64,000 bases of DNA, from the NCBI RefSeq assembly GCF_008087665.1, contig NZ_CP042912.1, positions 4,588,001 through 4,652,000 on the forward strand. The letters are read 5' to 3'. Of the stretch, positions 25,636-40,558 are shown piece by piece. The position numbers and the translations under genes are program-made. How positions within the stretch are numbered: position 1 is the stretch's first letter; each line of letters begins with the position of its first letter. The stretch comes from Mariniblastus fucicola (GTDB lineage: Bacteria; Planctomycetota; Planctomycetia; Pirellulales; Pirellulaceae). The notes under the pieces were generated by a model. That model was not told the origin of the DNA and did no database searches. It saw only the letters and a program-made list of their open reading frames with translations.

Positions 25636-25880
25636 GTTCGTCCTCTGAAGCGACGCTGTTTTCGGCCATAAGATCAATCCTATCTTAGCGGTGACTTCGG
25701 CTGAATTCACACGGTTCACCGTTTTGTAGCCAAATTGCTACGTGACTTACCCAGTCACAATTCTGACGGGCCAAATCCCAGGTGGCGTCAAAAGCCAAGC
25801 TGAAACCGAGTGCAAATCGTGGCATCCACGCTGCTGAGATTGCTGCGGTGGCGTGCGAAAGAAAATTCGCGAGAAAAAAG

Positions 25881-25969
25881 CGGACGGAGAGGGATTCGAA
25901 CCCCCGGTAGAGTTACCCCCACGCCGGTTTTCAAAACCGGTGCCTTAAACCAAGCTCAGCCATCCGTCC
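25881..25969 (-). tRNA. tRNA-Ser (anticodon UGA)
   Basis: Read on the minus strand, the 89-nt gene begins GGACGGATGGCTGAG and ends in TCCGTCC plus discriminator G. This gives a perfect 7-bp acceptor stem. The anticodon stem CCGGT/ACCGG encloses TTTGAAA, giving anticodon TGA. A long variable arm, as in all class II Ser tRNAs, precedes the GGGTTCGAATCCC T-arm. CCA is not encoded; a T-run follows the 3' end and may terminate transcription. Confidence 0.95.
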
Positions 25970-26337: not shown

Positions 26338-26829
26338 TTAGCGTACTGCTTCATACTTACGCGGAACGCGATTCCACACGCTATAGGTATGCACCCGGTT
26401 GGTTGCCTTGCCATCGGTTGTCGTTAAAGGCAGTTCGTTCTTACACCAATCCAGAATACTGCCTTTATAGTTCCAGGAGTTCCAACCCTTTTTCTTGAGC
26501 TGGTTTGCATAGCTGGCACTGCGTACTCCGGAGGTGCAATAGACGATGACCGCTTTTCCCTGATGCTGCTTGATTTCTTTCTCAAATTTGACTTTTGTAA
26601 TCGCACCCTTGATGACCGAGACTTTGGTTTCGGCAACCGAACGAACATCGACGATCACAAATTTATCTTTCTTGGTTTTGTCGCCCTGAAGCTGCCGGAT
26701 TTGATTTACCTTGACGACCGGAGCGGTCTGGATTTGTTTCGCATCCTGAGCGGAAACAATCGAATGTGATCCGAAGACCATCCACATCGCGACGATGACA
26801 ACCAAACTGTGGGTTCTTGAAAGCTGCAT
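26338..26829 (-). CDS. Exported single-domain rhodanese
   Basis: This 163-residue sulfurtransferase has a signal peptide (residues 1-25, ending IVSAQ), so it should act in the periplasm. The rhodanese domain carries VIVDVRSVAE and the active loop YCTSGVRS, with the persulfide-carrying Cys near residue 110. A conserved SILDWCKNELP-type ending follows. Rhodaneses move sulfane sulfur between thiols, cyanide, sulfite and thiosulfate. I start at the ATG at 26829, because the longer open frame adds 42 residues before an obvious signal peptide. It ends the run of sulfur genes on this strand. Confidence 0.85.
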   Translation of the reverse strand: MQLSRTHSLVVIVAMWMVFGSHSIVSAQDAKQIQTAPVVKVNQIRQLQGDKTKKDKFVIVDVRSVAETKVSVIKGAITKVKFEKEIKQHQGKAVIVYCTSGVRSASYANQLKKKGWNSWNYKGSILDWCKNELPLTTTDGKATNRVHTYSVWNRVPRKYEAVR

Positions 26830-27009
26830 TGAATTAAGTCCAAAACTAAAAGTATGATTCAAGGAAACGTTCCTTGCGATTCCATGTGATTTAATAACGT
26901 TCGTCCCGAAACCAGACCGCCTGACACCGTGCCCAAACAGTCTATCTGTCGCCACGTTTGATGTCAGGCAAACATATGGCGGAGCGTGTTTTTTTGAACA
27001 GACCTGGCA

Positions 27010-28680
27010 CTATGACTTCTCTTTCAGTTGGCCCGAGTTTTGAACCAGCCGAAAGCCGCCGCTGAGATTGGTCACGTCAAATTTGTGCTGCTGCAATAGC
27101 CGCGTGGCCATGTATCCGCGCAATCCGACGTGGCAATAGACGACGATCCGACGATCGCGAGGCAACTCGGCGAGGTTTTCGCGAAGCACTTCGAGAGGAA
27201 TGTTGCGAGCGTTTGGCAGATGGCCCCGAGCAAACTCCTGCTCTGAGCGAACGTCCAATAATTCGCTCTCGTTTGACTCCGAGATCGTGAGCTCGTCCCC
27301 CATGTGAACCACCGGGTGGTCGCCTCGCAGGACGCCCGATGCGACGAACCCCGCCATGTTAACCGGATCCTTGGCCGAACCAAACTGAGGAGCATAGCAA
27401 AGTTCGACTTCTTCGAGATCGTAGACCGACATGCCAGCCTGAATTGCCATCGAGATTACGTCGATCCGCTTGTCGACTCCGTTTGTGCCGACGGCTTGAG
27501 CTCCCAAAATACGTCCGTCGACTGAATCAAACAGCAACTTCAAAGTCATCTGTGTCGCGCCCGGAAAGTAACCGGCGTGGTCTTTCGGATGGATGTAGAT
27601 CTTCCTGAAAGCATGCCCCGACCGTCGCAACTGCTTTTCATTCTGACCCGTCATCGCAGCCGTCTGCCCAAACACGCCGACAACCGAAGTGCCTTGAGTC
27701 CCCCGGTATTTTGAACTGCGACCGCAAATGTGATCGGCGGCAATGCGGCCCTGGCGATTCGCCGGTCCAGCCAACGGAATTTGCGTCGGCTCGCCCGTTA
27801 CAAAATCACTCACTTCCGCCACATCGCCCACGGCGTAAATGTTCGGATCGTTTGTCTGCATGTGTTCGTTGGTGATGATCCCGCCGCGTGAACCAATCTC
27901 AAGTCCTGCGTCGACCGCCAGTTTGTTTACTGGCCGGACACCGATGCAAACCACGGCGAAACAGGCAGGCAACGTTCGCCCGGAATCCAGTTTTACAATC
28001 AAGTTGTTTTCATTCTGCGGACAACTGGCAAACTCTATCGCCGAATCGTTCAGCTGTAGCTTGACGCCTTTTTCACGCAGATGGTCTTCGAGCGGACGCA
28101 CCATCTCCATGTCCCAAGGGCTCAGGATTTGGCCACCCAATTCAACCAGCGTGACATCGAGTCCGCGGCGAATCAGATTCTCAGCGACCTCGACTCCAAT
28201 GAACCCTGCTCCGACAATTACCGCTCGTCGGCTGCATTGTGTCGTTACGAGATCGTGCATCCGGTCAGCGTCGCACAGGTCACGCAATTCCAGTACATGT
28301 GCGCCCTCAATTCCTGGAATTGGTGGGCGAAAGGGCGCTGCACCGGTGGAAAGAATCAGCCTGTCGTACGATTCGCAATACGTTTCGCCCGTCCCCAGGT
28401 TCTTGACTGACACTGACCGAGCATCACGATCAATACCGACGACTTCGTGGCGCGTCCGCACGTCGAGCCGATGTCGTTGTCGAAGCATCGCAGCCGGAGC
28501 CACCAGCAGTTTGCTTCGCGACTCAATTTCGCCGCCGACGTAATACGGAAGCCCACAGTTGGCAAACGAAGGTTCTGTGCCGCGCTCGATCAGTATGATC
28601 TCCGCATCCTCGTCCAGTCGTCTGGCTCGTGCCGCAGCGGAGGCTCCACCTGCCACAGCGCCTACAATCACAATTTTCAT
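27010..28680 (-). CDS. CoA-disulfide (persulfide) reductase fused to rhodanese
   Basis: This 556-residue NAD(P)H flavoprotein belongs to the CoADR-RHD family, which reduces CoA disulfide, CoA persulfide or polysulfide. FAD binds at VIVGAVAGGASAAARARRLDE. The single redox Cys lies in FANCGLPYYVGG near residue 43, and NAD binds near VIVGAGFIGVEVAENL. A C-terminal rhodanese domain (about 460-550) has DVRSEQEFARGH and the active loop YCHVGLRG. In Enterococcus a CoA-persulfide reductase of this type is part of a sulfide-stress regulon. Here a palindrome at 28814-28833 resembling the two near the arsR gene lies 134 bp upstream. The gene follows cydB after about 230 bp. Confidence 0.9.
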   Translation of the reverse strand: MKIVIVGAVAGGASAAARARRLDEDAEIILIERGTEPSFANCGLPYYVGGEIESRSKLLVAPAAMLRQRHRLDVRTRHEVVGIDRDARSVSVKNLGTGETYCESYDRLILSTGAAPFRPPIPGIEGAHVLELRDLCDADRMHDLVTTQCSRRAVIVGAGFIGVEVAENLIRRGLDVTLVELGGQILSPWDMEMVRPLEDHLREKGVKLQLNDSAIEFASCPQNENNLIVKLDSGRTLPACFAVVCIGVRPVNKLAVDAGLEIGSRGGIITNEHMQTNDPNIYAVGDVAEVSDFVTGEPTQIPLAGPANRQGRIAADHICGRSSKYRGTQGTSVVGVFGQTAAMTGQNEKQLRRSGHAFRKIYIHPKDHAGYFPGATQMTLKLLFDSVDGRILGAQAVGTNGVDKRIDVISMAIQAGMSVYDLEEVELCYAPQFGSAKDPVNMAGFVASGVLRGDHPVVHMGDELTISESNESELLDVRSEQEFARGHLPNARNIPLEVLRENLAELPRDRRIVVYCHVGLRGYMATRLLQQHKFDVTNLSGGFRLVQNSGQLKEKS

Positions 28681-28813
28681 ATTTATCTACTTCGGATTGT
28701 CATGGTACGGAATGCTTTCGCTGCTTTTGAACAACGAAGGCATCTCACATGCGACATCGTTTCAAAAACGACCAGGATTGGAGCCCGGACGAGTCTGCCC
28801 TTCAACTGTCTTT

Positions 28814-28833
28814 ATATCGAAATATCGACATAT
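28814..28833. promoter_or_regulatory. Candidate ArsR-family operator upstream of the CoA-disulfide reductase gene
   Basis: The minus-strand reading fits ATATnTCGAnnnnTCGATAT and matches the site at 39455-39474 at 15 of 20 positions. It lies 134 bp upstream of the reductase start. It is the weakest of the three similar sites because it is only partly palindromic. Confidence 0.5.
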
Positions 28834-28909
28834 TACAATTCCAGTTTCACAGAAAATCGACACGAGGACGATTTTTAGACGTCTTGTCACGACGGGCAAT
28901 TCGCAGCTA

Positions 28910-29911
28910 TCAACTTTCGGTGACAGGATGTCGAAAGGTCCAATAGACGATTGCTGTATAGGATGCGATCAGGGGAACGCCGATCATCGCGATGATGCAC
29001 ATCAGCCACAGCGTCCCCTGGCTTGACGCGGCGTTGTAGATGTCGAGAGACGTGGATTCGCTGGTTGAGTAGACCATGTTTGGAAACGTGGAAACAGAAT
29101 ACAGGCCTACCAAGCAGGCAATGTTGATGCTGGACGAGGCAAACGCCTGAGCATATTTTTCCGCCATGATGGCGCGTGGAATATTGGCAACGCACAGCAC
29201 GTTGAGGATCACGATCGGAATCGCCCACGGAGCCTGTTTGATGTTGTCAACAACATGCTCATTTTCGATCAATGTCATCATCGAAACGAGAATGTAGGCA
29301 ATCAGAAACACTCCCCAAGTATGCCACAACCAACCCTTGAGCCGCTCGCGAACATCGCCCGTCGTCTTCAGGAACAAAAACATCGCGCCGTGCATTGCGA
29401 AGACTGTCGTCGCCAGAAAACCGGTCGCCAATGTGTACGGCGTGAACAGCCCGATCAAATCACCCGTGTAGGTGCCTCTTTCGTCGATCGGAAATCCCTG
29501 GATCAAGTTTCCGGCAGCGACACCAAATACGATGGTCGCACCGAGACTTGAAATCGTGAATCCACAGTCCCAAAACAGTTTCCAAAACCGGCTTTCGACT
29601 TTGCTGTAGAAATCAATGCTTACCGCGCGGAGGATCAGGCAAAACAACAGCAACATGATCGGCAGATACATCGCCGACAGGATCGTCGCATAGGCTTCCG
29701 GAAAAGCAGCAAACAACGCTCCTCCGAAAGTCACCAACCAGACTTCGTTACCATCCCAAAGAGGACCGATGGCTTTGATTGCCAGTCCACGTTCTTTTTC
29801 GCCGCCAAGAATCGGATGGATAATGCCGACGCCGAGATCGAAGCCGTCAAGGATCGCGTAGCCAGCCAGCAGCACGCCGAGCAGGATGAACCAGATCAGA
29901 TTCAAATCCAT
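28910..29911 (-). CDS. cydB: Cytochrome bd ubiquinol oxidase subunit II
   Basis: This 333-residue inner-membrane subunit pairs with CydA to form a quinol oxidase that reduces oxygen to water. The N-terminus LNLIWFILLGVLLAGYAILDGFDLGVGI and the GPLWDGNEVWLVTFGGALFAAFPEAYA stretch are family signatures. About eight membrane segments follow. It starts one base after the cydA stop, so the two are a single transcription and translation unit. I see no small cydX gene directly downstream. Confidence 0.95.
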   Translation of the reverse strand: MDLNLIWFILLGVLLAGYAILDGFDLGVGIIHPILGGEKERGLAIKAIGPLWDGNEVWLVTFGGALFAAFPEAYATILSAMYLPIMLLLFCLILRAVSIDFYSKVESRFWKLFWDCGFTISSLGATIVFGVAAGNLIQGFPIDERGTYTGDLIGLFTPYTLATGFLATTVFAMHGAMFLFLKTTGDVRERLKGWLWHTWGVFLIAYILVSMMTLIENEHVVDNIKQAPWAIPIVILNVLCVANIPRAIMAEKYAQAFASSSINIACLVGLYSVSTFPNMVYSTSESTSLDIYNAASSQGTLWLMCIIAMIGVPLIASYTAIVYWTFRHPVTES

Positions 29912-29912
29912 T

Positions 29913-31424
29913 TTAGCTTCCCTCCGTGAGTGAGTGGTGACCGGTCAGGGCTTCCGCGAGGTCATCGTTGCCGGATTTTGAAGAGTCGTCTTTATGGGGC
30001 GGCCCGGCCTGAATTTTTCGATTCAAGACGAACAACCACAGAATCCCAAGCAGAAAATAGATGGCTCCGAACATGATGATCGACGTCAGAACCTGCTCCG
30101 AAGTGATCGCTTTCGAAACCGCGTCGTTGGTTCGCAAGCCAAGCTCACTTTCGTAGATAAACTGTCCGCTTTCGTCCTCCACTCGCACGCCGCTTTCGTC
30201 GACCTTGAGAGGAGCCTGAACAATCCAGGGCTGTCGACCGACTTCTGTCGCGACCCAACCGGCTTCGTTTCCGGCAATCGCTGGCACAATCGAAATCACG
30301 AACAGCCACATCACCCAGCGTTTGTCAAACAGCGTTCCGCGCCACAGCCAAAACGTCGAAAGCACCATCAGTCCCGTCAGACTAACGCCAGTCCCGATCA
30401 TGATGTGATAGGCGAAGTACGGAATTTTCACCGGCGGCCGGTCTTCTGGTTTGAACTTGTCCAACCCGATAACGTCTTCGTTGAAATCTTCGTGCACGAG
30501 GAAACTGAGTGCTCCGGGGACTTCAACATTCATATCGATCGACTCGGTCTCCTCGTTTGGAATGCCGACCAGACTCATTCCTGCTGGCCCGGTTTCAAAA
30601 TGGCCTTCGAATGCAGCCAGTTTCGCGGGCTGGTGCTCGTACACCATCTTGGCTTGGAAGTGACCGCTGACGAACATCGCCAGACAGCTAAACAGACACA
30701 GAAACAATCCGCCGGTAAGCGACTTCTTCGCGAACTCTTCGTGTTTGCCGCGGATCAGGTACCAGGCTGAAATGCTCAGCACCAAACAAGCGCCCATAAT
30801 GAAGCAGCCCAGCCAAACATGGATCAGGCGATGCATGGTTGAGGGATTGAAAACCATCGCCCAAAAGTCAACGATCTCTGCCCGCATGATCGGTTGACCG
30901 TCGACGAACCAGGGCTCACCGTTGCGAGTCATCTGCACGATTTCGTGGCCGGCCGGAGTTTGCTGCCAACTGTTGGCAATTGTGATCCAGACGCTGCTGA
31001 AGATCGAACCGAGAGCGACCATGCAGGCTGCGAAAAAGTGGAACGCCGGGCTGACTCGGTCGTGCCCGTAGACCAGGATGGCGAGGAATCCGGATTCGAG
31101 AAAAAACGCAAAGATGCCTTCGGCGGCCAACGCCGATCCGAACACATCACCGACGAAACGGGAGTACATCGCCCAATTGGTTCCGAACTCGAACTCCATA
31201 ACGATACCGGTGGCGACACCGATCGCAAAGTTGACACCAAAGATCCCGGTCCAGAACCTCGCGGCGTCCATGTAGATCTGTTCTTTCTTCCACAAAAACA
31301 TGCCCTCGAGCCAGGCGATGATAACGCCCAGGCCGATCGTGAGCGGCGGGAAGAGATAGTGAAACATGATGGTCAGTGCGAATTGAATTCGCGACAACAT
31401 GACCACGTCCATTTCAGCCAACAT
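29913..31424 (-). CDS. cydA: Cytochrome bd ubiquinol oxidase subunit I
   Basis: This is the heme-bearing subunit of cytochrome bd. It has an early heme-ligand His in [41 protein letters not shown], and [15 protein letters not shown] near the C-terminal half. I choose the ATG at 31424 ([16 protein letters not shown]), which matches the usual N-terminus and gives 503 residues. An ATG at 31451 and a TTG at 31487 lie further inside the preceding gene. The start overlaps the end of the methyltransferase gene by 11 bp. Cytochrome bd is known in E. coli to resist sulfide inhibition, which fits its place among sulfide-oxidation genes. Confidence 0.95.
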
Positions 31425-32019
31425 CGGTTTCTCGTTTCCGAAAAAGAACATATGCCAATTCAACCAATTTGCCGCTTGGGTGTTCAAAGCGAACCGGTTC
31501 TTCGTTGGGCCAATCCCATCGCGAATCAGGAAACGTAAGTTTCATGTCTTCGAGACCGCAATGAAACGGTGGCCCATTGGGACCTTCAACTTGAGCAAAC
31601 AAAGCGAACAGTTTTCCATCGGGTTTGAGCCATTGGAAAACGGCTTGCTCGTACTGCAATCGCGACTCGGGGCCAATCGCACAAAGGCAGGTTTGTTCGT
31701 AGACAGCGTCGACTTTCTGCGGAGGCTGAAAGTCAAACATGCTCCCTTGAACGACCCTCGAATTTTCTTCGAAGCCAACAAGTCGCTTTCTCAGATTCTT
31801 AACCGGTTCGCTCGCCAGGTCGATGGCTGTGACATTAAAGCCCTCCTGAGCCAGCTTGACGACTTCGTGACCGCGGCCGCACCCCGGAACGATGATGGAA
31901 CACGGCTGCAGCTGTCCGGAATCCATCCAATGGTCCAAGGCGGGATGAACTGAGCCGCGATCCCAGCCAGTTTTTCCGTCCCGGTAGCAGGCATTCCAAA
32001 ATGTTGCGTCGTCGTTCAT
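31414..32019 (-). CDS. TPMT-family SAM-dependent methyltransferase
   Basis: This 201-residue enzyme resembles thiopurine S-methyltransferase and its bacterial relatives, which methylate thiols, and in some bacteria selenium or tellurium species. Family marks are [14 protein letters not shown], the SAM site [35 protein letters not shown] and the [11 protein letters not shown] stretch. It overlaps the DUF202 gene upstream by 4 bp (ATGA) and cydA downstream by 11 bp, so the three are coupled. In this setting methylation of hydrogen sulfide or a small thiol is an attractive guess, but the substrate is not visible in the sequence. Confidence 0.87.
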
Positions 32020-32468
32020 TTCCCAGGTGGTCCTTCAGCATTCAACTCGATGCCGAGACTCGAAAAATCGATAAACAGCAAGTACATCGCCAGCGCGACT
32101 CCAACCAAAGCGGCTCCGTAGGATACGAAAACGACCAGGGTGGAAGCTGCGAACCGATTGTCGGATTGTCCAATGCGGCGAAAGTATTTGTGATAGTGGT
32201 AGGGAGCGGCCGCAGTCGTGACCACGCCAAGACAAACCAACAGGACGCCAATCACCGTCGCTTTGACGATCAGCAACACGCTGGTGTTTACGCCGAGCGA
32301 TTGCATGACCAGGGCAAAACGGGCAATGACGAACCCGAATGCCATCAATGCCAAGCCCGTTCGAATCCACGCCAGGACCGTCCGTTCCGCTGCCATTTGG
32401 ACGCGCGGGTCGTCTTCGAGAATTCGCTTGCTCTTGCCGCCGTCGTTGTCCTGATTCTCTGCTGCCAC
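32016..32468 (-). CDS. DUF202 (YidH-like) membrane protein
   Basis: This 150-residue protein has the DUF202 signature RTVLAWIRTGLALMAFG near residue 29 and three membrane segments (about 35-52, 65-87, 105-135). The function of DUF202 proteins is unknown. Related small membrane proteins often sit near oxidases or stress genes. It begins the tightly overlapping group DUF202-methyltransferase-cydA-cydB, with the 4-bp overlap ATGA. A gap of about 125 bp separates it from the heme lipoprotein gene upstream. Confidence 0.85.
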   Translation of the reverse strand: MAAENQDNDGGKSKRILEDDPRVQMAAERTVLAWIRTGLALMAFGFVIARFALVMQSLGVNTSVLLIVKATVIGVLLVCLGVVTTAAAPYHYHKYFRRIGQSDNRFAASTLVVFVSYGAALVGVALAMYLLFIDFSSLGIELNAEGPPGK

Positions 32469-32593
32469 AATCGTCTCCTTTTCGTTGGCTCAACTCGATC
32501 GCGTTCAGGACCTCAGCTAAAAACTATTGTGAGTTGAACTGTAGAACGATCTGGTTTGACGAACTGTACAGGCGACCCCCTGTTAGTTGCAAG

Positions 32594-33214
32594 TTACCCC
32601 TGAGGTTTGGGAACTTCGATCCAGAAGTATCCTCGCAAGTCTCCGGCCGTAAATCCGGTCGCCTGATCGTTGGGATAGTTGGTCTCGATCGCTTCTGCAA
32701 CGTCCGCTGCAAGATACTCGGGAGCTCCATGGCACTTGATACAGGCGTCCATCAAACGAATCGGCAACAGAACACCAAGCCCATTCTCTGCCAGTTCAAC
32801 GTTGACTTCTTTCTCAACACGCTGCTCTACAAAATCTGTAGCCCACTCGGGTGGAACATTTTCGTCGTTTCGCAACAGGAAAGACGTTCTGCCAATCTTC
32901 AGCTTCATCTCCTCGCTGATCGATTTTGCAATCTCAGGAGCACGGTTTTTGCAAACTTCGATCGACTTGGCGACTCCATCTTTCGCGACCGAGTCAGTGA
33001 GCTCACCGATCAGCGACTGAAAAAGCTTGTCCCGTGCAGCAATGGCGGTCTCACGCTGCTGTTGCTGAACCTCAGAAAGTTCAACCAATGCCGCATCAGA
33101 AGCATCGTCCGTCGGCTGAGCCGTTTTTGTGGATTGAGTACAGCCTGCAATCGTGAGCAACGTTGCGGCAGTCGCAAACAGAGTGACGCTCAGTCGCATT
33201 AAAGTTTTGTCCAT
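32594..33214 (-). CDS. DUF3365-family heme c lipoprotein
   Basis: This 206-residue exported protein has a signal ending in the lipobox IAGC, so it is probably a lipid-anchored periplasmic protein. One heme c motif, CIKCH, lies near residue 157, within the DUF3365 (Tll0287-like) fold. KVPEWATDF-type and FTAGDLRGYFW stretches support the fold. Proteins of this type are thought to be redox or gas-sensing heme domains. It follows the SQR gene by about 60 bp on the same strand and could take part in the same electron flow or sense sulfide; this is inference. Confidence 0.83.
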   Translation of the reverse strand: MDKTLMRLSVTLFATAATLLTIAGCTQSTKTAQPTDDASDAALVELSEVQQQQRETAIAARDKLFQSLIGELTDSVAKDGVAKSIEVCKNRAPEIAKSISEEMKLKIGRTSFLLRNDENVPPEWATDFVEQRVEKEVNVELAENGLGVLLPIRLMDACIKCHGAPEYLAADVAEAIETNYPNDQATGFTAGDLRGYFWIEVPKPQG

Positions 33215-33216
33215 AG

Positions 33217-33246
33217 TTATGCTCGACTTTCTTATGCTCGACTTTC
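33217..33246. repeat. Two tandem copies of a 15-bp unit
   Basis: TTATGCTCGACTTTC occurs at 33217-33231 and again at 33232-33246 without mismatch. It lies just upstream of the heme lipoprotein start, in the short gap after the SQR gene. It could affect the ribosome-binding region, which otherwise shows no strong Shine-Dalgarno sequence. Confidence 0.7.
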
Positions 33247-33276
33247 AAAGTCAATTGTCGCGGGTTTGAGTTAACG

Positions 33277-34464
33277 TTAGGCGCGGCCACGCAGCATGCC
33301 ATGCCAATAGAGATTCGGCAGCCCGTACTTTTTTAACATGTACATGCTGAACCGTTCCTGAGACTGATCGAACGGAAATGACTCCATCGGATTCTTGTCA
33401 TAGTCGAATTCGGCAAGCACCATCGTGCTGTAACTTGTCACCAACGGACACGAAGTATATCCGGTGTAGTGCCCGCTAAGCGGCTTGCCATCGATGAGAC
33501 AAAGTATGTTCTCGGACGCGGTCGGAGCCTGCTTTCGTATCGCCGCCCCGGTTTTTGACGTCGGCAGGTTTGAGGTGTCTCCAAGCGCAAAAACGTTGGG
33601 GTAGCGAACGTGCTGAGTCGTATGCTTGTCGACATCCACCCAACCGTCTTCTGCAGCCAACGGACTGTTTTTCACAAAGTCTCGCGGACCCATTCGTGGC
33701 GTCACGTGAAGCATGTCATACTTGATGACGCTCTCTTCGCCAGTATCCAGATGTTCGAACACGGCTTCTTTGGTCTCGGGACGAATCTCCACCAGATTGT
33801 GCTGAAGCCGAACGTCGATGTCTTTTCGTTTGACTCTTTTCTCCAGTGTCGTCGCGTAGGGGTCGACTGCAAAAATCCGTGGCTTGGCGAGTGCAAACAC
33901 GACGTTGCACTGATCGCGAATTCCCTGTTTTCGAAAATAGTCTTCTGCGAGATAGCAAATTTTCTGAGGAGCCCCGCCACACTTGACTGGAGTGTCAGGA
34001 TGCGTGAAAAGTGCAGTTCCACCTTTGAAATTGCGGATCGTTTCCCAGGTCGTTTCTACAGTGTCATAGCTGTAGTTGCTACAGATCCCGTGTTTGCCAA
34101 CGATGTCCTTGGTCAGTCCCTTTGTCTCTGACCAGTTCAACTGCAGGCCAGGACAAACGACCAGATAATCGTAAGGAACCGATTCGCCTCCGACGGTCTT
34201 GACCGTGTTGTTTTCAGGATCGAAAGACTCAACCGCGTCTTTCATCCACGTCGCGCCGTGAGGAATAAAGTCAGCTTGCTCGCGTTCCGATTCCTCTTTC
34301 GGAAACACTCCGCCGCCAATCAAAGTCCACAGAGGCTGATAGTAATGCTTTTCGCTCGGTTCAATGATTGTGACATCGAGCTCCGAACGCGAGTTAAGCA
34401 AATGCGCGGCTGTCGTGAGACCGGCCGAGCCACCGCCGACGATAACAATTTTTGGATTCGACAT
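33277..34464 (-). CDS. sqr: Sulfide:quinone oxidoreductase, type II (eukaryote-like)
   Basis: This 395-residue membrane-associated flavoprotein oxidises sulfide to sulfane sulfur and passes the electrons to quinone. It begins IVIVGGGSAGLTTAAHLL. The two redox Cys lie in VKCGGAPQKICYLAEDYFRK and GYTSCPLVT, which closely resemble the mitochondrial SQRDL enzyme. The C-terminal region contains the FPFDQSQERFSMYMLKKYGLP stretch and ends LYWHGMLRG, as in that type. The ATG at 34464 is used, with AGGAC upstream; the longer frame adds an unrelated N-terminus. It follows the DUF1641 gene by about 75 bp, a pairing seen in other bacteria. Quinol made here can be reoxidised by the cytochrome bd encoded about 3 kb downstream. 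Confidence 0.92.
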   Translation of the reverse strand: MSNPKIVIVGGGSAGLTTAAHLLNSRSELDVTIIEPSEKHYYQPLWTLIGGGVFPKEESEREQADFIPHGATWMKDAVESFDPENNTVKTVGGESVPYDYLVVCPGLQLNWSETKGLTKDIVGKHGICSNYSYDTVETTWETIRNFKGGTALFTHPDTPVKCGGAPQKICYLAEDYFRKQGIRDQCNVVFALAKPRIFAVDPYATTLEKRVKRKDIDVRLQHNLVEIRPETKEAVFEHLDTGEESVIKYDMLHVTPRMGPRDFVKNSPLAAEDGWVDVDKHTTQHVRYPNVFALGDTSNLPTSKTGAAIRKQAPTASENILCLIDGKPLSGHYTGYTSCPLVTSYSTMVLAEFDYDKNPMESFPFDQSQERFSMYMLKKYGLPNLYWHGMLRGRA

Positions 34465-34540
34465 TTCAAGTCCTGCAGGTGTGTAGGGATTCGGCCATGT
34501 CATCACGCTGAAGACGGCCGCTGGTTTGCTCTTCCGTGTG

Positions 34541-35194
34541 TTACGGCTTTTCCATGTTCTTGCCGAACTGTTCTCCAAATTTCGCAGCAAATGCAACGGC
34601 CTTTTGAATCTCCGGGTTTCTCATCACGCCCAGCAATCCAAAAATGCCGATTCGCTGTTTCGTAGTGGACAACGCCGACTCCTTTTGAGCTGACGTCAAC
34701 GCGTTGGCGGCATTTCCAACGACTGCGATGGCTTCGTTGCTGAGGATATCAGACTTGAGCAGCTCGCCAATTTTTTCAAGGTCCTGTTTGTCGATCTGCG
34801 CACCCAACCACAACGCCGCCTGCAATCCATTGACGAGACTACGCTCAAGATCGACTCCGTCACCCTCGCAACGCTTTTGAAAGTCGTCGAAAACGTCGCC
34901 CAGTGACGCGATCACGTTCGGGACTTCATCCGCGAGCTTTGCCAAAGCCGCAAGTTGTGGAAGTCGCTGGACAAGCGTCTGAAGCGACTTCATATTCTCA
35001 GGTTCGGTGAGTTGCAACAGCAACCCAAGCAGGCCTTCAACGCGAGGCTCGACTTCAACTCCCTTGTCCGCGGCGCGAGAAATCTTCTCGTCGATTGCGT
35101 CTGCCGAAGTCGCAAAGGCATCTTCAACCGAAACGCCCATTCGCTCAAACAGGACCTGCTCGATCGTCTGAGATTCATTGTCTGTGGTTTTCAT
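34541..35194 (-). CDS. DUF1641-family protein, SQR partner
   Basis: This product of about 217 residues is mostly helical, without membrane segments or signal. The C-terminal RIGIFGLLGVMRNPEIQKAVAFAAKFGEQFG resembles the DUF1641 core (GLLRALRDPEVQ-like). The gene lies directly before the SQR gene, as DUF1641 genes do in other organisms. The product might be a partner that helps SQR associate with the membrane or with an acceptor, but no function is established. I choose the ATG at 35194 because GTGGAG lies 6 bp upstream. An ATG at 35227 overlaps the TauE stop by 4 bp and cannot be excluded. Confidence 0.8.
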   Translation of the reverse strand: MKTTDNESQTIEQVLFERMGVSVEDAFATSADAIDEKISRAADKGVEVEPRVEGLLGLLLQLTEPENMKSLQTLVQRLPQLAALAKLADEVPNVIASLGDVFDDFQKRCEGDGVDLERSLVNGLQAALWLGAQIDKQDLEKIGELLKSDILSNEAIAVVGNAANALTSAQKESALSTTKQRIGIFGLLGVMRNPEIQKAVAFAAKFGEQFGKNMEKP

Positions 35195-35223
35195 TTTCAA
35201 CTCCACTATCGTTTCCTGTTGAG

Positions 35224-36069
35224 TCATGAATCAACTACTTGCGTGATCACCGTGTCGGGCTGCGGGTCGGTCGACTTCAGCAATTCGCTGCCCTCCTTGA
35301 GGATCACAAAGGCGCCGACAAGCACGAGAAAGACTGCGAAGGCCTGCGTCAGCCCACGCTGGTTTAATCGTGAATTAATTTGCTGCCCAAGAAAGCAGCC
35401 AAACAGTCCAACACCAACGAAAATCCCGATCGTCGACCAGTCAACAGACAAGTCATGGGCACTCAGGTAGTGTTGGTATTTAAAGAAACCGACGGCGGAC
35501 TTCATCACAATGATGACCAGACTGGTTCCGATTGCGGTCCTCATCGGGAGCTTTCCAAGGATCAACAGGGCGGGCACGATCAGGAAGCCACCGCCGACTC
35601 CGACAAACCCGGTCAGCACGCCGACCAGCGACCCCTCAAGGAAGATCAAGACGCCCTTGGTGCCATCAATTGAACGTTTCGCACCAACCGATTCTTCGAT
35701 GGTGCTGCTCTTTTTCCCAAACGCCTTTCGGATCATGAATCCCGCTGCCAACAACAGGACCAACCCAAATACGATTAGCTGCAGCGCGTCGCTGGCCATT
35801 CCTCCAAGCCACGCGCCGATGAAAGTGCCGAGCATCGCCGGCAATCCAAACAGAACAACACTTGGCCAATCGACCTGTTTCGCGCGAGCAAACGGTAAAG
35901 CGCCCGCCGCGGAGATTGCGCCGACAATCGCCATGGATTCAGCGATTGAAATCTTGGCGTCGTGTCCGACGAGGTAAACGAGGATCGGAACCATGATGGC
36001 CGATCCACCCGACCCCAGCAGGCCAAGAATCATCCCGACAATTATCGCTCCAACAATTATGGTGGTCAT
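35224..36069 (-). CDS. TauE/SafE-family sulfite (organosulfur) exporter
   Basis: This 281-residue inner-membrane protein has about eight membrane segments. The repeat motif GLLGSGGSAIMVPILVYL lies near the N-terminus, and its paralogous copy GFVGVGGGFLIVPALLIL lies in the second half. TauE proteins of this fold export sulfite or related anions. In the Staphylococcus aureus cst operon a TauE sits with CstB and SQR, just as here. The start is the ATG at 36069, 11 bp after the peroxiredoxin stop; the longer open frame overlaps that gene. Confidence 0.88.
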   Translation of the reverse strand: MTTIIVGAIIVGMILGLLGSGGSAIMVPILVYLVGHDAKISIAESMAIVGAISAAGALPFARAKQVDWPSVVLFGLPAMLGTFIGAWLGGMASDALQLIVFGLVLLLAAGFMIRKAFGKKSSTIEESVGAKRSIDGTKGVLIFLEGSLVGVLTGFVGVGGGFLIVPALLILGKLPMRTAIGTSLVIIVMKSAVGFFKYQHYLSAHDLSVDWSTIGIFVGVGLFGCFLGQQINSRLNQRGLTQAFAVFLVLVGAFVILKEGSELLKSTDPQPDTVITQVVDS

Positions 36070-36080
36070 GGTATCGCCAT

Positions 36081-36827
36081 TCAATCCTGTTGATTCGTCA
36101 ACGCACGAGTGCAAAAATACCAATCTTTACATTCAACATTCCCAGCAATTCGTTCCTGCGCCTGCTGAATCGTTTTCGGCGGCGGCACGATGACATCGTC
36201 TCCCGGTTGCCAACCTTCCGGCGTCGCGATCCCGTGCTGTTCAGAAGCCTGCATCGCTTTGAGCAATCTCAGAAACTCGTCGATATTTCGACCGTTGCTC
36301 ATCGGATAGTAAATCATGGCTCGCATGACTCCTTCCGGGTCGATAAAGAATGTGGTTCGCACGGCGGAGGTGTCACTGGCTCCCGGCATGATCATTCCGT
36401 AGGCCGATGCAACTTCCATCGAAAGGTCATCGATAATCGGGAACGGAATCTCAACTCCGAATTTTTCTTTGATGTTCAGCATCCAGGCGACGTGCGAAAA
36501 TGTACTGTCAATCGACAGCCCCAGCAAATCACAATTAAGCTTCTGAAACTCAGGCCAGGCTTTCGCAAACCCCATGAACTCGGTGGTGCAGACGGGCGTG
36601 AAGTCCGCCGGATGCGAAAACAGGATCAACCAGCGTCCCTTGTAGTCACTCAGCTTCCGGTCACCATGCGTCGTCGGTGCATGAAAGTCCGGAGCCGCCT
36701 CGTTCAATCGTGGAAGCGTCACCCGCGTTCCTGAAAAGTCGTTGCTAAAACTCATCGCTGGACTCGTTAAAACTTCTGAACCAATGCCTTCACCGTGCGT
36801 CTTGCGACGACTGAAATTTCCACACAT
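36081..36827 (-). CDS. 1-Cys peroxiredoxin (Prx6 type)
   Basis: This peroxidase reduces hydrogen peroxide or organic hydroperoxides. The peroxidatic Cys is in HPADFTPVCTTEF near residue 76, DLLGLSIDSTFSHVAWM follows, and the long C-terminal domain of the Prx6 group is present. I start at the ATG at 36827, giving 248 residues, because AGGAGA lies 5 bp upstream. This adds 24 residues (MCGNFSRRKTHGEG...) before the usual beginning MSFSNDF at 36755. The added stretch contains one extra Cys. The gene lies in the sulfur cluster between YeeE and TauE genes, so it may handle peroxides or polysulfides made during sulfide oxidation. Confidence 0.88.
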   Translation of the reverse strand: MCGNFSRRKTHGEGIGSEVLTSPAMSFSNDFSGTRVTLPRLNEAAPDFHAPTTHGDRKLSDYKGRWLILFSHPADFTPVCTTEFMGFAKAWPEFQKLNCDLLGLSIDSTFSHVAWMLNIKEKFGVEIPFPIIDDLSMEVASAYGMIMPGASDTSAVRTTFFIDPEGVMRAMIYYPMSNGRNIDEFLRLLKAMQASEQHGIATPEGWQPGDDVIVPPPKTIQQAQERIAGNVECKDWYFCTRALTNQQD

Positions 36828-36835
36828 GCGGTCTC

Positions 36836-37327
36836 CTAGTGAGGCAGTTTTGACTTCAGCATTGCGTACAGATACATCCCAATCATCGCCCCTGCGAGAG
36901 TCACCCACCCCAGCCAGGCACCGGCACCAATTTGAGCGTAAATTGGACCAGGGCAGGCCCCCGTGATCGCCCAGCCAGCACCAAATAGCATACCGCCGAT
37001 GACAACACCTTTGTGAAATGGCTTGGGTTTGTAAACAATTGGCTCGCCTTCGATCGTCTTTGCGCGCTGTGACTTGATGATCAGCATCGAGATCATGGCG
37101 ACGACGACACCGACGCCAATGATCAGGTACATGTGAGCTTCCTTGAACAGAAACATGTCGTGAACACGCTGCCAACGAACCACCTCGGATTTGGTTAGCA
37201 CGATGCCAAAGTACGTCCCGACCAGCAACGACATTGCCAGTGCGAGCGACGAAACACCGGCCTGCTCATTTGACTTACCCGGCGGCGACGCTTCGGATTT
37301 TATTTTGTTCTCTGATACAGTTGCCAT
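36836..37327 (-). CDS. YeeE/YedE-family half-size transporter (second of pair)
   Basis: This protein of about 163 residues has four membrane segments and the conserved Cys motif FGAGWAITGACPGP. Full-length YeeE (TsuA) of other bacteria imports thiosulfate through cysteines of this kind. Here the transporter is split in two genes, as in other YeeE/YedE pairs. GGAGG lies about 8 bp before the ATG at 37327, which favours this start over a TTG five codons upstream. It begins one base after the stop of the first half gene. Confidence 0.87.
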   Translation of the reverse strand: MATVSENKIKSEASPPGKSNEQAGVSSLALAMSLLVGTYFGIVLTKSEVVRWQRVHDMFLFKEAHMYLIIGVGVVVAMISMLIIKSQRAKTIEGEPIVYKPKPFHKGVVIGGMLFGAGWAITGACPGPIYAQIGAGAWLGWVTLAGAMIGMYLYAMLKSKLPH

Positions 37328-37328
37328 C

Positions 37329-37820
37329 TCAAAATCCTCCAAAGATTAAGCTTCCGAGTCCCCAAGTCACTCCCAGTCCGCCGACGAAAAAGAAAATGGT
37401 GGCGACGAGGCTGGGCCAATTGAGATTCGCGATTCCGGTAATTGAGTGCCCGGACGTGCAGCCTCCCGCGTAACGTGTTCCGAAGCCCACCAGGATACCG
37501 CCCAGCAGCAGTCGCACCACGCCACCGACGCTCGCGAATGATTCAGGCAGGAACTCCACCGGTTCGGCGGAAAGGAAGTTGTTGGCGATGAAGCCGCCGA
37601 TCACGATGCCGATCGCAAACACCAGCGTCCACAATCCTTTACGACGATTAAAGTCGCGGAGATAAGGCAGTTTTGAGTTGGGCGAACACATCGCACCCAC
37701 TTGCTGCAAACTGGTTGAGATACCAAACCCCTGGCCGGCAAGGAAATACAGCATGGGCACCGTCAGCCCCACCAAAATCCCTGACAGCCACCACGGCCAC
37801 GGTTGCATGATGAAATCCAT
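37329..37820 (-). CDS. YeeE/YedE-family half-size transporter (first of pair)
   Basis: This 163-residue inner-membrane protein carries the conserved GFGTRYAGGCTSGHSITGI loop, whose Cys in full-length family members helps pass thiosulfate. Membrane segments lie at about 10-28, 66-85, 100-117 and 135-158. AAGGA precedes the ATG by 6 bp. Paired with the next gene it probably makes one functional transporter. Whether it imports thiosulfate or moves sulfide or sulfite is uncertain. It follows the CstB-like gene by about 160 bp. Confidence 0.87.
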   Translation of the reverse strand: MDFIMQPWPWWLSGILVGLTVPMLYFLAGQGFGISTSLQQVGAMCSPNSKLPYLRDFNRRKGLWTLVFAIGIVIGGFIANNFLSAEPVEFLPESFASVGGVVRLLLGGILVGFGTRYAGGCTSGHSITGIANLNWPSLVATIFFFVGGLGVTWGLGSLIFGGF

Positions 37821-37979
37821 TAGCGTCCTTTCAAAATTGAATCGGCAGCGTAAACAGTAAAGGTCTTTGATGGCGAATTGCCATCCGGTTGCGGGGCCCG
37901 GGGCATGCGACGGCTACATCTGCAGCACACGCATCCCCACCCTGAACGCACTACCAATTGATTGCCACAATGTCGAGTT

Positions 37980-39419
37980 TTAGCACGATTCGCCACAGCC
38001 AACGGATTGCGGCTGTTCGGAAACGACCGGATTGCCTTCCTTTTCCCAACGCACAATTCCACCATCAAGGTTGATGACGTTCTTGATCCCGCTGGCCTGA
38101 GCAATACCGCACGCGACGGCAGAACGCGCTCCAGATCGACAATGGAAAACCACAGGCTTGCTGTCGTCGATCTCCTTTACGCTGTCCAAGATTTTGCCGA
38201 GGAATCGGTGGTCTGCCTGAGGAATATGGCCCTCGTTCCACTCAGCCTGACGCCGAACATCAACCAACAACATATCGCCCCGTTCGATCGCGCCAGCGAC
38301 CTCTTCGGGAGTTTTGTATTCATAGGCTTCCGTCGCCAAACCTGACTTCGCAACTTCATCGCCATCGAAATAGCCAACGATGTTGTCGACACCCATTTCA
38401 CGAAAAACGTGAATCGCATCAGCAAGTTCTGCGCCGCCAGCGATCAGATACAACGGCTTGCTATAGTCGACGTACCAACCAGCGTCGCGAGCGATATACT
38501 TGGTCGGAATGTTCAGCGCCCCAGGAACATGATTTCGGGCGAAGCTCTTCGAAGCCCCGACATCGATCACCATGTGATCCTCAACCGTGGCGGTGAGCTT
38601 GGCGATGTCAATCTTTTTCGGCAAACCCTCGTCGCCGATCACTTTCGGACCGTGCTTGTTGACATGTTTCATGACCGCAAAGTATGGCGGAGCTTCCGGC
38701 TGATCAGACAGCACGTAAGCAACAAACTCGTCTTCAGATTTAAACTGAAGAGCTTCGTTGAAAAGTTTTTCATAACCAACGGTGCTGGACGGAATCGCCC
38801 CCAGCCCTTTACCACAGGCACTACCTGCACCGTGCGAAGGCCAGACCTGCAGAAAGTCAGGCAGTTCGTTGAATCGCTTGATCGAAGCGAACAGATCGCG
38901 AGCCCCAGGCTCCGCCGTTCCCGCCTGGCCAGCAGCCTCTTCGAGCAAATCGGGCCGCCCGATGGAGCCAACGAAGACAAAATCGCCTGTGAAAATTCCC
39001 ATCGGCCGATCTGCTCCACCGCCAGTGTCGGTCAGGATGAACGAGATACTTTCGGGAGTATGGCCCGGCGTGTGCATGACTTTGAATTTGATATTCCCGA
39101 CCGCAAACTCGTTGCCGTCCTTCAGCAACTGATGATCGTAGCCATCCACAAACGTGTACTTCCAGTCAGCTGGTCCTTCATCGGAAACGTAGAGCTTTGC
39201 ACCGATTGCTTCAGCCAATTCACGGCTACCAGAAACATAATCCGCGTGAATATGAGTTTCGGCCGAGCCAACGATCGTCATCCCTTCCCGTTCTGCAACG
39301 TCGAGATACTGGTCGATGTTTCGATCTGGATCGATCAAAATGGCCTCGCCAGTCTTTTGACAACCGACCATGTATGAAGCGTGAGCGAGCGATTTGTCGT
39401 AAAAGTATTTGAGCAACAT
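37980..39419 (-). CDS. CstB-like persulfide dioxygenase-rhodanese
   Basis: This 479-residue enzyme has three domains. Residues 1-235 form a metallo-beta-lactamase-fold persulfide dioxygenase, with THIHADYVSG, the HTPGHTPESISF His and a conserved FTGDFVFVGSIGRPDL Asp supplying iron ligands. Residues about 255-360 form a rhodanese fold whose active loop (LIAGGAEL) has no Cys. Residues about 375-470 form an active rhodanese with the HCRSGARSAV loop. The same order occurs in Staphylococcus aureus CstB, which turns persulfides into thiosulfate. A ribosome site, AAGGGAGAAAG, precedes the ATG at 39419. A palindromic operator lies 36 bp upstream. It is the first enzyme gene behind the arsR-type regulator. 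Confidence 0.9.
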   Translation of the reverse strand: MLLKYFYDKSLAHASYMVGCQKTGEAILIDPDRNIDQYLDVAEREGMTIVGSAETHIHADYVSGSRELAEAIGAKLYVSDEGPADWKYTFVDGYDHQLLKDGNEFAVGNIKFKVMHTPGHTPESISFILTDTGGGADRPMGIFTGDFVFVGSIGRPDLLEEAAGQAGTAEPGARDLFASIKRFNELPDFLQVWPSHGAGSACGKGLGAIPSSTVGYEKLFNEALQFKSEDEFVAYVLSDQPEAPPYFAVMKHVNKHGPKVIGDEGLPKKIDIAKLTATVEDHMVIDVGASKSFARNHVPGALNIPTKYIARDAGWYVDYSKPLYLIAGGAELADAIHVFREMGVDNIVGYFDGDEVAKSGLATEAYEYKTPEEVAGAIERGDMLLVDVRRQAEWNEGHIPQADHRFLGKILDSVKEIDDSKPVVFHCRSGARSAVACGIAQASGIKNVINLDGGIVRWEKEGNPVVSEQPQSVGCGESC

Positions 39420-39454
39420 AGTGCTTTCTCCCTTAAGCGATTCAATATACGTAA

Positions 39455-39474
39455 ATATCTCGAATGATCGATAT
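39455..39474. promoter_or_regulatory. ArsR-family operator upstream of the CstB-like gene
   Basis: ATATCTCGAATGATCGATAT is an imperfect palindrome of the form ATATCn-N8-nGATAT. It lies between the regulator stop and the CstB-like start, 36 bp upstream of the latter. It matches the site at 39833-39852 in length, outer half-sites and the TCGAAT core. Confidence 0.75.
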
Positions 39475-39498
39475 GTGATCCAAAAAAAAGATCGCTTC

Positions 39499-39807
39499 CT
39501 ATCCGAATCGATCCTGAATGCACGACATGATGTCTTGCAGGTGCGGCTCAGAAACCGAATAAAAAACGGTTCGTCCGCTACGTTGACTGCTGAGAAACCC
39601 ACAACGATGCATCAACCGAAGATGATCTGACGTCGTCGGCTGGTTCAAATCGCAATGCTCCGCGATTTCATTGACGGACAATTGCTGCCCGGACAACAGG
39701 AGCTGCACAATTTGCAGTCGGTGCGGATGCGCCAAAGCCTTCAGGCATTCGGCAGCAAGCGACAGCGAATCGAAGTTGAGCTGTTTCGATTTTCTGGGTT
39801 TGTTCAT
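39499..39807 (-). CDS. ArsR/SmtB-family repressor, probable persulfide sensor
   Basis: This 102-residue winged-helix regulator has the family core ALAHPHRLQIVQLLL, the recognition helix NQPTTSDHLRLMHRCGF and the wing RSGRTVFYSV. It has Cys at 21, 52, 69 and 96. There is no CxC of the ArsR metal site. Cys21 at the start of helix 2 and Cys96 in the last helix could pair, as the two sensing cysteines do in BigR and SqrR. AAGGA precedes the ATG at 39807; a longer frame reaches back across the operator and is rejected. It is followed by the CstB-like gene and flanked by two matching palindromes, so it probably represses itself and the sulfur genes. Confidence 0.87.
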   Translation of the reverse strand: MNKPRKSKQLNFDSLSLAAECLKALAHPHRLQIVQLLLSGQQLSVNEIAEHCDLNQPTTSDHLRLMHRCGFLSSQRSGRTVFYSVSEPHLQDIMSCIQDRFG

Positions 39808-39832
39808 CAGTCTTCTTCCTTTCGTTGTAAAT

Positions 39833-39852
39833 ATATCGTCGAATCTCGATAT
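39833..39852. promoter_or_regulatory. ArsR-family operator upstream of the regulator gene
   Basis: ATATCG-TCGAATCT-CGATAT is a perfect 6-bp inverted repeat with an 8-bp spacer. It lies 26 bp upstream of the regulator ATG and about 180 bp upstream of the divergent membrane-protein gene at 40034, so it may control both. Confidence 0.78.
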
Positions 39853-40033
39853 GTCAATTCTGTCTTTTCCCGAAATTGTCATTTTTACCGGAAGAAGTTT
39901 TGCGAGCAGTTCGGGCTGGAGCGTTTGCACTGGTTTATGTCCATTCGATTTTGCGGATAGAATACCGAGCTTCGTTTTCAGCGGCGAAGCTGAATCAATT
40001 TGGAAATTCAACTAGATCGTTCGTACGAAACCA

Positions 40034-40558
40034 GTGCAAAAATACCTAAACCCTCGAATCGGAAACGTAGCGGCCATCTGGGGCGTTGTCGGCGCGTGCT
40101 CAGTGCTCGGCTTTGCCGTCTTTCGAATGATCGGCCATGTGAATGAGGGATTCCAGCATACTCTTGGTTGGCAGCATTACGCGTTGATGGTGCCGTGGCT
40201 GTTTTTCATGCTTTATAGCGAGGGCTATAAGGGGTTTCAGAAAGGTTATTCGCCACGGGTAGCCGCGAGGGCGAATTATCTTCGCGAACGTTCAACGCTG
40301 GTGCGTGCCGTGTTTGCGCCGCTGTTCTGCATGGGCTTCTTTGATTCGACCAGGAAACGAAAGATCGTCATTTGGGTTTTACTGCTGGCAATCACTTCGC
40401 TCGTCGTGATTTTTCAGTTCATCCCGCAGCCTTGGCGCGGCGTATTGGACCTTGGAGTCGTCCTTGGGCTGACCTGGGGAATTTTGGCGACGTTGTATTT
40501 TATGGTCAAGTTTTGGTTCGGCGATGCGGCGGACGCCAATCCGGAAGTCCCCGAGTGA
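40034..40558 (+). CDS. Membrane protein of unknown function
   Basis: This 174-residue protein has four likely membrane segments (about 12-30, 45-62, 108-127, 134-160). An amphipathic, basic loop with KGFQKGYSPRVAARANYLRERSTLVRA lies between the second and third. The start is a GTG. I recognise no domain. It is transcribed away from the arsR gene and shares its upstream region, so it may be part of the same regulon, perhaps as a transporter or accessory factor. It converges on the DUF3500 gene. Confidence 0.65.
   Translation: MQKYLNPRIGNVAAIWGVVGACSVLGFAVFRMIGHVNEGFQHTLGWQHYALMVPWLFFMLYSEGYKGFQKGYSPRVAARANYLRERSTLVRAVFAPLFCMGFFDSTRKRKIVIWVLLLAITSLVVIFQFIPQPWRGVLDLGVVLGLTWGILATLYFMVKFWFGDAADANPEVPE

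Follow-up and report, generated by a model that had tools for sequence, protein, structure and literature searches.

Within a 64,000-nucleotide stretch of the Mariniblastus fucicola chromosome (hereafter the window; the whole genome measures 6.57 Mb and is a single contig), we identified a compact island of sulfur genes that is likely to function as a sulfide- or persulfide-induced detoxification and respiration system. By the open reading frame (ORF) calls, it comprises 15 genes, all on the minus strand, running from 39807 down to 26338, with neighbors either overlapping or separated by no more than 229 bp. An initial annotation of this DNA had counted fourteen genes and carried the range on to 40558; the ORFs give one gene more, and the last 550 bp of that range hold an unrelated plus-strand ORF. 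Every family named in that annotation was borne out by the ORFs together with Pfam and NCBIfam matches, and the families and their catalytic motifs do form a coherent set for sulfide and persulfide detoxification. Our reading is built on gene content, homology, catalytic motifs, a set of candidate operators with their conservation, and the recurrence of modules in other genomes. The components are given here in the order of transcription, in which the gene for the CstB-like MBL-rhodanese protein follows arsR and the exported rhodanese comes last:

39833..39852, minus strand: candidate operator 1, in the arsR promoter, where it takes up the spacer from -35 TTGACA to -10 TATATT (11/12 sigma-70 matches)
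39499..39807, minus strand: arsR, ArsR/SmtB regulator with four cysteines kept in relatives
39455..39474, minus strand: candidate operator 2, in the intergenic gap from arsR to the dioxygenase gene
37980..39419, minus strand: persulfide dioxygenase with rhodanese domain, CstB-like (Pfam/NCBIfam, PDB relatives)
37329..37820, minus strand: YeeE half, C-terminal half of the Sulf_transp profile
36836..37327, minus strand: YeeE half, N-terminal part of the Sulf_transp profile
36081..36755, minus strand: peroxiredoxin (AhpC-TSA and 1-cysPrx_C)
35224..36069, minus strand: TauE/SafE exporter (PF01925, E 2.6e-46)
34541..35227, minus strand: DUF1641 protein, often adjoining the gene that follows
33277..34461, minus strand: sulfide:quinone oxidoreductase (SQR), human SQOR-like (families and PDB alignment)
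32594..33214, minus strand: Tll0287-like (DUF3365) c-type heme lipoprotein (PF11845, CXXCH)
32016..32468, minus strand: DUF202 membrane protein (family match)
31414..32019, minus strand: TPMT/HOL-type S-methyltransferase (family and PDB relatives)
29913..31412, minus strand: cydA, cytochrome bd subunit I (family, 6rko, tree)
28910..29911, minus strand: cydB, cytochrome bd subunit II (Pfam/NCBIfam)
28814..28833, minus strand: candidate operator 3, just behind cydB and before the coenzyme A (CoA)-persulfide reductase gene
27010..28680, minus strand: CoA-disulfide/persulfide reductase with C-terminal rhodanese domain (families, PDB relatives)
26338..26829, minus strand: rhodanese with N-terminal hydrophobic stretch, probably exported as judged from sequence

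The sulfur-oxidizing core

SQR, the dioxygenase and the CoA reductase retain the cysteines expected of their families. In PDB searches, SQR retrieves the human-type SQOR (E 3e-125), and the two active-site cysteine positions coincide in the alignment; the motifs KCGGAPQK and YTSCPLV correspond to those of the human enzyme, and C161 and C338, which we take to be catalytic, are invariant in 10 rows. In the nearest named relative found, a Mariniblastus metagenome-assembled genome (MAG), SQR is 74% identical. The dioxygenase matches 3tp9 (E 9e-148) and 3r2u (E 9e-117), the latter presumably the Staphylococcus aureus CstB, over nearly its whole length, which upholds the parallel to the cst operon drawn in the initial annotation. 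By hand count, the cysteines of its SACGKGLG and HCRSGARS motifs align with 3r2u positions 225 and 432, which we take to be the catalytic C201 and C408 of CstB. The CoA reductase has as PDB relatives 3nta, 3icr and 8a56, the last described as a “Coenzyme A-persulfide reductase”; its SFANCGLPYY motif and the YCHVGLRG motif of its rhodanese domain align with 3nta, such that both the flavoprotein cysteine and the rhodanese cysteine, presumably the functional ones, are present. Genome searches for SQR, the dioxygenase and CydA retrieved a single match apiece at the cutoffs used. Among the island genes, no enzyme converting sulfite or thiosulfate to sulfate was seen; Sox and sulfite oxidase genes elsewhere in the genome were outside this search. 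The complete oxidation of the initial annotation is not supported: as predicted from these genes, the pathway ends at sulfite or thiosulfate, and the island gives no grounds for sulfate as its final product.

A candidate operator and its regulator

Three 20-base imperfect palindromes are situated in gaps of the island, before arsR, between arsR and the dioxygenase gene, and before the CoA reductase gene. In the window, the pattern ATATS-N10-SATAT matches at these three positions and nowhere else (expected number, 0.04), and none of 100 shuffles reaches three; genome-wide, it finds six sites (one for the reversed control), three of which are those in the island. One exact pattern designed for all three operators gave no match, as they share the arms of the palindrome but vary in the bases inside it, and a matrix scan trained on the three sites, being circular, was not relied on. 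The arsR operator occupies the spacer of the strongest sigma-70 match in 15 kb (TTGACA-16-TATATT, 11/12); taken overall, the promoter matches do not exceed chance (11 against an expected 8.7), and the arsR promoter alone stands out.

A check independent of the island was made by searching ATATCG-N8-CGATAT in 60 genomes of the family, which yielded 31 sites in 22 genomes, with three for the reversed control. Taking one palindrome locus per genome, 14 of the 22 lie directly before genes for ArsR (12), the dioxygenase (1) or a rhodanese (1). These 14 loci contain 15 sites, of which 12, oriented with the genes, have TTGAC directly 5' of them. Similarly, 26 of 27 distinct sites of the form TTGACATATCG-N8-CGATAT precede ArsR (17), SQR (4), DUF1641 (2), dioxygenase (2) or TauE (1) genes, in a set where many loci had been picked for these very genes. 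SQR genes lying apart from the ArsR operon can have a site of their own (L029, L030, L036 and L041). The candidate promoter-operator TTGACATATCG-N8-CGATATATT at the arsR, dioxygenase and CoA-persulfide reductase promoters is new here. The shared sites support a predicted joint induction of arsR, the dioxygenase gene and the CoA reductase gene, and not directly that of cydAB.

Three of the six genome-wide sites lie outside the island. Those at genome positions 1176146 and 6518204 were set aside as operators because they fall inside long ORFs; around the latter (L158:3435-6113), the ORFs resemble what we take to be type I-C CRISPR genes (Cas7- and Cas8c-like). The third is intergenic (genome 3247007; L156:5008-5027), 103 bases from a gene for a ferritin-like protein (PF00210), and is framed in a promoter-like manner toward that gene as TTGAT-ATATCG...CGATAT-ATT, so that the ferritin-like gene may be an outlying member of this regulon.

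The regulator itself belongs to a group of ArsR proteins in which four cysteines are kept in 34, 35, 35 and 35 of 36 aligned rows, the window ArsR being among these rows and one gene being present twice. From its context, persulfide is the likely inducer of this switch.

Conservation across the Pirellulales

Among 246 genomes of the order Pirellulales, 44 have SQR (E 1e-20 or better) and 91 have the dioxygenase (E 1e-40 or better). The stretches examined around the 43 other SQR loci are of unequal length, and some are cut by contig ends, so that linkage is understated. They encode the dioxygenase (29), TauE (29), ArsR (21), DUF1641 (13) and the CoA reductase (8), and less often YeeE, the peroxiredoxin and the methyltransferase (2 each) and the exported rhodanese (1); CydA, CydB, the heme lipoprotein and DUF202 occur in none of the stretches examined. 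At a further 20 dioxygenase loci, none with a complete SQR beside it (a few are from genomes with SQR elsewhere; L152 has a partial SQR), we found TauE at 18, ArsR at 12, YeeE at 4, the heme lipoprotein at 3 and the methyltransferase at 2. Thus, of the gene order whose conservation the initial annotation had offered as a check, a core of ArsR, dioxygenase and TauE, often with DUF1641-SQR, is kept in many Pirellulales, but the full order is not. The extra parts have apparently been recruited separately, as detailed below.

Accessory parts: oxidase, methyltransferase and heme lipoprotein

The CydA of the island matches that of the Escherichia coli bd-I oxidase (6rko) with an E value of 2e-80 and has the GRQPW motif, and CydB is also present. 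In E. coli, cytochrome bd supports sulfide-resistant respiration (PMC4815019), and by analogy, the island enzyme is probably sulfide resistant. The claim that the island has its own terminal oxidase holds insofar as this is the sole CydA found in the genome, but three COX1-family proteins (heme-copper oxidase or nitric oxide [NO] reductase) are encoded outside the island.

CydA (E 1e-20 or better) occurs in 32 of the 246 genomes of the order. In the genus (28 genomes), SQR is found in three and CydA in three, with both only in the window genome. In genome G216, of the same family, CydA lies 13 kb from the dioxygenase gene, outside the stretch used for the 20 loci and inside locus L119. Beyond the order sample, in named genomes, CydA stands beside SQR in three of the best 80 of 587 SQR loci, namely, those of a Lewinella MAG (L215), Anoxybacillus voinovskiensis (L235) and a Thermoactinomycetaceae MAG (L260); the chance of at least three among these best 80 is roughly 0.0006 to 0.004. 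The CydA tree separates the rows of the window, Lewinella and the Bacilli, and the labeled island rows need three changes of label; the G216 row (L090), left unlabeled, falls in another group, and the tree carries long-branch warnings. A single sulfide-type CydA clade was considered and rejected, in that the island-linked rows do not form one group and the label is no more clustered than under shuffling (75 of 500 shuffles scored as low). Because the linkages are separate and the island CydA rows are apart in the tree, the bd oxidase has apparently been recruited repeatedly to SQR or dioxygenase clusters. As a separate observation, genome G231 has a second ArsR/rhodanese cluster 6 to 8 kb from its cydAB genes (L114:17200-18860).

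The methyltransferase has as PDB relatives 3lcc, a “putative methyl chloride transferase” that we take to be the plant HOL1-type enzyme, along with thiol methyltransferases. Human TPMT methylates HS- and glutathione persulfide (PMC13089183), and the island protein is closer to the HOL/thiol methyltransferases. Relatives are found in 26 of the 246 genomes at an E value of 1e-15 and in 12 above 170 bits. In 5 of these 12, the window included, the gene lies within 3 kb of SQR or the dioxygenase; for 4 of the other 11 genomes, the probability by chance is about 4e-7, a rough figure that, like those for CydA above and the heme lipoprotein below, assumes one random place per genome. The remaining 14 genomes, at 60 to 85 bits, were left out of this count, and where they also have SQR or the dioxygenase, it is never on the same contig. 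A match in L141 was dropped, its genome being absent from the methyltransferase genome list. Efflux-type genes (HlyD/MacB/ABC, by eye) lie near the methyltransferase gene in G216 (L119:8258-15956) and at L183:3493-6649.

The heme lipoprotein has a PF11845 domain with CXXCH, and this motif and a further cysteine are kept in 16 of 16 rows, one of which is a fragment of the window gene; by conservation alone, this cysteine is a candidate axial ligand. The same combination of PF11845 and CXXCH is seen in stand-alone sCache_heme/Tll0287 proteins, which are regarded as redox proteins (PMC12889525, a 2026 preprint), whereas the island protein sits among sulfide genes. The family is found in 12 of the 246 genomes. 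Of the 11 besides the window genome, 3 (G164, G216 and G231) have it no more than 3 kb from the dioxygenase (about 3e-5 by chance); in the window, it adjoins SQR, giving 4 of 12 genomes with linkage overall. In G216 (L119:5975-7651), the Tll0287-like domain is fused to a di-heme peroxidase domain (CCP_MauG); the excerpts of the preprint describe Tll0287 cytochrome c fusions from Flavobacteria only. The fusion belongs to a 20-kb stretch of G216 that codes, on one strand, for ArsR, a rhodanese, TauE, the dioxygenase, a DsrE-domain protein and the methyltransferase, and also for an exported rhodanese, the above efflux-type genes, two YeeE halves, CydA and CydB; the order-wide SQR search gave no match in this genome.

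Among the best 80 of 587 SQR loci, the dioxygenase occurs at 57 and DUF1641 at 28, and the other parts are infrequent: the peroxiredoxin at 4, the heme lipoprotein at 3 (Portibacter L197, Flavilitoribacter L213 and a Pirellula MAG, L228), the methyltransferase at 2 (one at 24% identity) and DUF202 at 1. DUF202 also adjoins SQR in L268, from one of the two other genomes of the genus with SQR. The bd oxidase and the methyltransferase, which the initial annotation had viewed as additions to the core, thus both recur beside sulfide genes elsewhere.

Proposed mechanism and alternative explanations

We propose that, at rest, the four-cysteine ArsR would occupy the operators lying in promoter spacers and, as their position suggests, block the polymerase, and that persulfide or another thiol-reactive sulfur species would release it. 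SQR would then oxidize sulfide, with the electrons entering the quinone pool and the sulfur being handed to a small thiol (CoA, for instance); the resulting persulfide would be oxidized by the CstB-like enzyme to sulfite or thiosulfate, which TauE and YeeE may carry across the membrane, and the CoA-persulfide reductase and the rhodaneses could recycle or move sulfane sulfur. Cytochrome bd would pass electrons from quinol to oxygen when sulfide blocks the heme-copper oxidases, while the TPMT/HOL-type enzyme might methylate residual HS- or persulfide, the peroxiredoxin protect against peroxide, and the heme lipoprotein act as an extracytoplasmic redox partner or sensor. The inducer, the fluxes and the transcription of cydAB with the rest are what we infer here; cydAB would come under the operator switch via read-through or further promoters.

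Several observations weigh against such an integrated, sulfide-induced unit. SQR is optional relative to the dioxygenase (44 versus 91 genomes of the order), so the core signal may be persulfide and not sulfide; in the samples examined, the complete set with cydAB, the methyltransferase and the heme lipoprotein is peculiar to this genome; and 8 of the 22 palindrome loci of the family are not beside these genes. For cydAB in particular, the stretches examined show CydA at 0 of the 43 other SQR loci in the order and at 0 of the 20 dioxygenase loci. The dioxygenase is also present in 23 of the 31 other CydA genomes, and the two lie within 15 kb only in G216, with distances taken from match coordinates and several pairs on different contigs; this also speaks against repeated recruitment of the bd oxidase. 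Genome G296, whose CydA is the nearest (87%), gave no match to SQR, and no CoA reductase was found in the 2 kb after its cydB. The palindrome scan of the window found no operator before cydA. Transcription of this gene would start either at the dioxygenase promoter, 8 kb away on the upstream side, or at a promoter of its own, and gaps of 125 to 229 bp leave room for additional promoters. The 0 of 43 count, the single close pair among the 23 genomes and the missing operator at cydA would all fit a persulfide or sulfane-sulfur homeostasis core with cydAB, DUF202 and the methyltransferase as chance neighbors related to low oxygen, NO or peroxide stress. We regard this as unlikely in view of the separate cydAB linkages in the G216, Lewinella, Anoxybacillus and Thermoactinomycetaceae loci, the low chance figure for CydA among the best 80 SQR loci, the three changes in the CydA tree with the G216 row in yet another group (subject to the warnings noted above), and the independent linkage of the methyltransferase to SQR or the dioxygenase.

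The regulator and the transporters invite two further explanations. ArsR lacks the persulfide-sensing cysteine pair of BigR, Cys42 and Cys108 (PMC5823870), which also weighs against the favored reading: aligned with BigR (3pqj), it has Q and G at these positions, the Q being invariant in 11 rows. Its NCBIfam BigR score is 46.7 against a cutoff of 155, and three ArsR members score far below that cutoff. This absence makes it an ArsR of another sensor type and bears on the earlier statement that the regulator family differs, which is correct with respect to Staphylococcus (ArsR/SmtB and not the CsoR-type CstR), but ArsR-type switches are known for operons of this sort (BigR and SqrR), and the real difference from these is the lack of their cysteine pair. 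The NCBIfam match that does exceed its cutoff is to a metalloregulator subfamily, and there are weak matches to the CmtR Cd/Pb sensors; together with the four conserved cysteines, which could form a thiolate site, these would suit a metal sensor, with the island answering to Cd, Pb, Cu or As and the sulfur genes as effectors. We find this quite improbable, as no metal exporter or arsenate gene was seen among the island proteins scanned, and in relatives, the operators precede SQR and dioxygenase genes. Alternatively, YeeE and the exported rhodanese might serve import, the island being devoted to the uptake and use of thiosulfate or polysulfide, with SQR and the dioxygenase handling internal sulfide instead of defending against that from outside. 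A characterized YeeE is a thiosulfate importer (PMC13047784), and the 20 dioxygenase loci keep TauE (18) and YeeE (4) without a full SQR alongside; however, TauE and the bd oxidase point to export and resistance, and no TusA/YeeD-type partner was found among the island proteins scanned, leaving this explanation a low probability.

We therefore favor induced detoxification coupled to respiration. One may go further and see in these data a Pirellulales-wide regulon governed by a four-cysteine ArsR, unlike SqrR and BigR, through a spacer-built operator, to which three sulfide outlets have been added in this lineage (oxidation via a dedicated bd enzyme, S-methylation, and an extracytoplasmic Cys/His heme lipoprotein for sulfur redox), along with the distant ferritin-like gene; we offer this joint reading tentatively, as a conjecture that may well prove too broad.

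Relationship to known systems

The S. aureus cst operon, which we take to comprise CstR, TauE, CstA, CstB and SQR, shares with the island the CstB-like dioxygenase-rhodanese, SQR, TauE and a regulator gene at the front. It differs in that the island regulator is an ArsR and not CsoR-type, and the island adds DUF1641, YeeE, the peroxiredoxin, the CoA-persulfide reductase, the bd oxidase, the methyltransferase and the heme lipoprotein. Part of the cst content is documented in PMC7315123. The bigR-type operons of Xylella, Agrobacterium and Acinetobacter have an ArsR-family repressor, a dioxygenase and TauE or a YeeE/YedE pair (PMC5823870, PMC7315123), but in the island, the BigR pair is lacking, the dioxygenase is CstB-like and not DUF442-ETHE1, and SQR is included. 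The 11-gene yrkD cluster of Bacillus licheniformis likewise contains SQR, a persulfide dioxygenase (PDO), TauE and a rhodanese, and its repressor controls one promoter ahead of the repressor gene and a second one after it (PMC9918477), which is the layout of our operators 1 and 2. As YrkD is CstR-like and thus of another family, the shared layout is convergent; that cluster also differs in having an NreBC system, and the string “cydA” is absent from the excerpted text of that paper. In Acinetobacter baumannii, SQR, PDO and TauE of the FisR/BigR regulons are sulfide induced together with cydAB, and a model joins SQR and CydAB via the quinone pool (PMC7315123); by locus tags, cydAB there is far from the sulfide operon, whereas here it is inside the island. 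Among the top-ranked results of literature searches, whose scope excluded most subscription papers, neither a planctomycete operon with this composition nor an operator like this one nor a clustering of cydAB with SQR came up. The core is of a known kind (cst/bigR/yrk), and the switch and some of the extra parts look new.

These findings would recast a group of clustered sulfur genes as a predicted regulon, the operator of which can be sought across planctomycete genomes, and they offer a candidate new sensor subtype of ArsR. They also tie the Tll0287 heme family, the function of which is largely open, to sulfide genes, and the apparent repeated recruitment of the bd oxidase would constitute genetic support for the flow of electrons from SQR to bd under sulfide. 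If this is true, some planctomycetes would seem to have the equipment for sulfidic interfaces.

Genomic setting

The guanine-plus-cytosine content of the island (51 to 54%) is the same as that of its flanks, giving no sign of recent import, and a foreign origin by composition was set aside. The tRNA-Ser gene at 25880-25969, the sole Rfam match, was considered as an integration point; its 5' side faces the island, so it is not a likely one, by this argument from orientation only. Divergent from arsR is the plus-strand ORF at 40034-40558, which codes for a membrane-type protein of 174 amino acids with neither a family match nor a match in 143 related loci (the 43, 80 and 20 above). Beyond the tRNA-Ser gene, downstream of the island, a minus-strand gene at 24682-25719, also without a match in those 143 loci, encodes a protein with a hydrophobic N terminus and, at its C-terminal end, the heme motif CRSCH; its dual-specificity-phosphatase/DUF442-like domain weakly matches the sulfurtransferase portion of Blh, and the gene could be a further sulfur gene.

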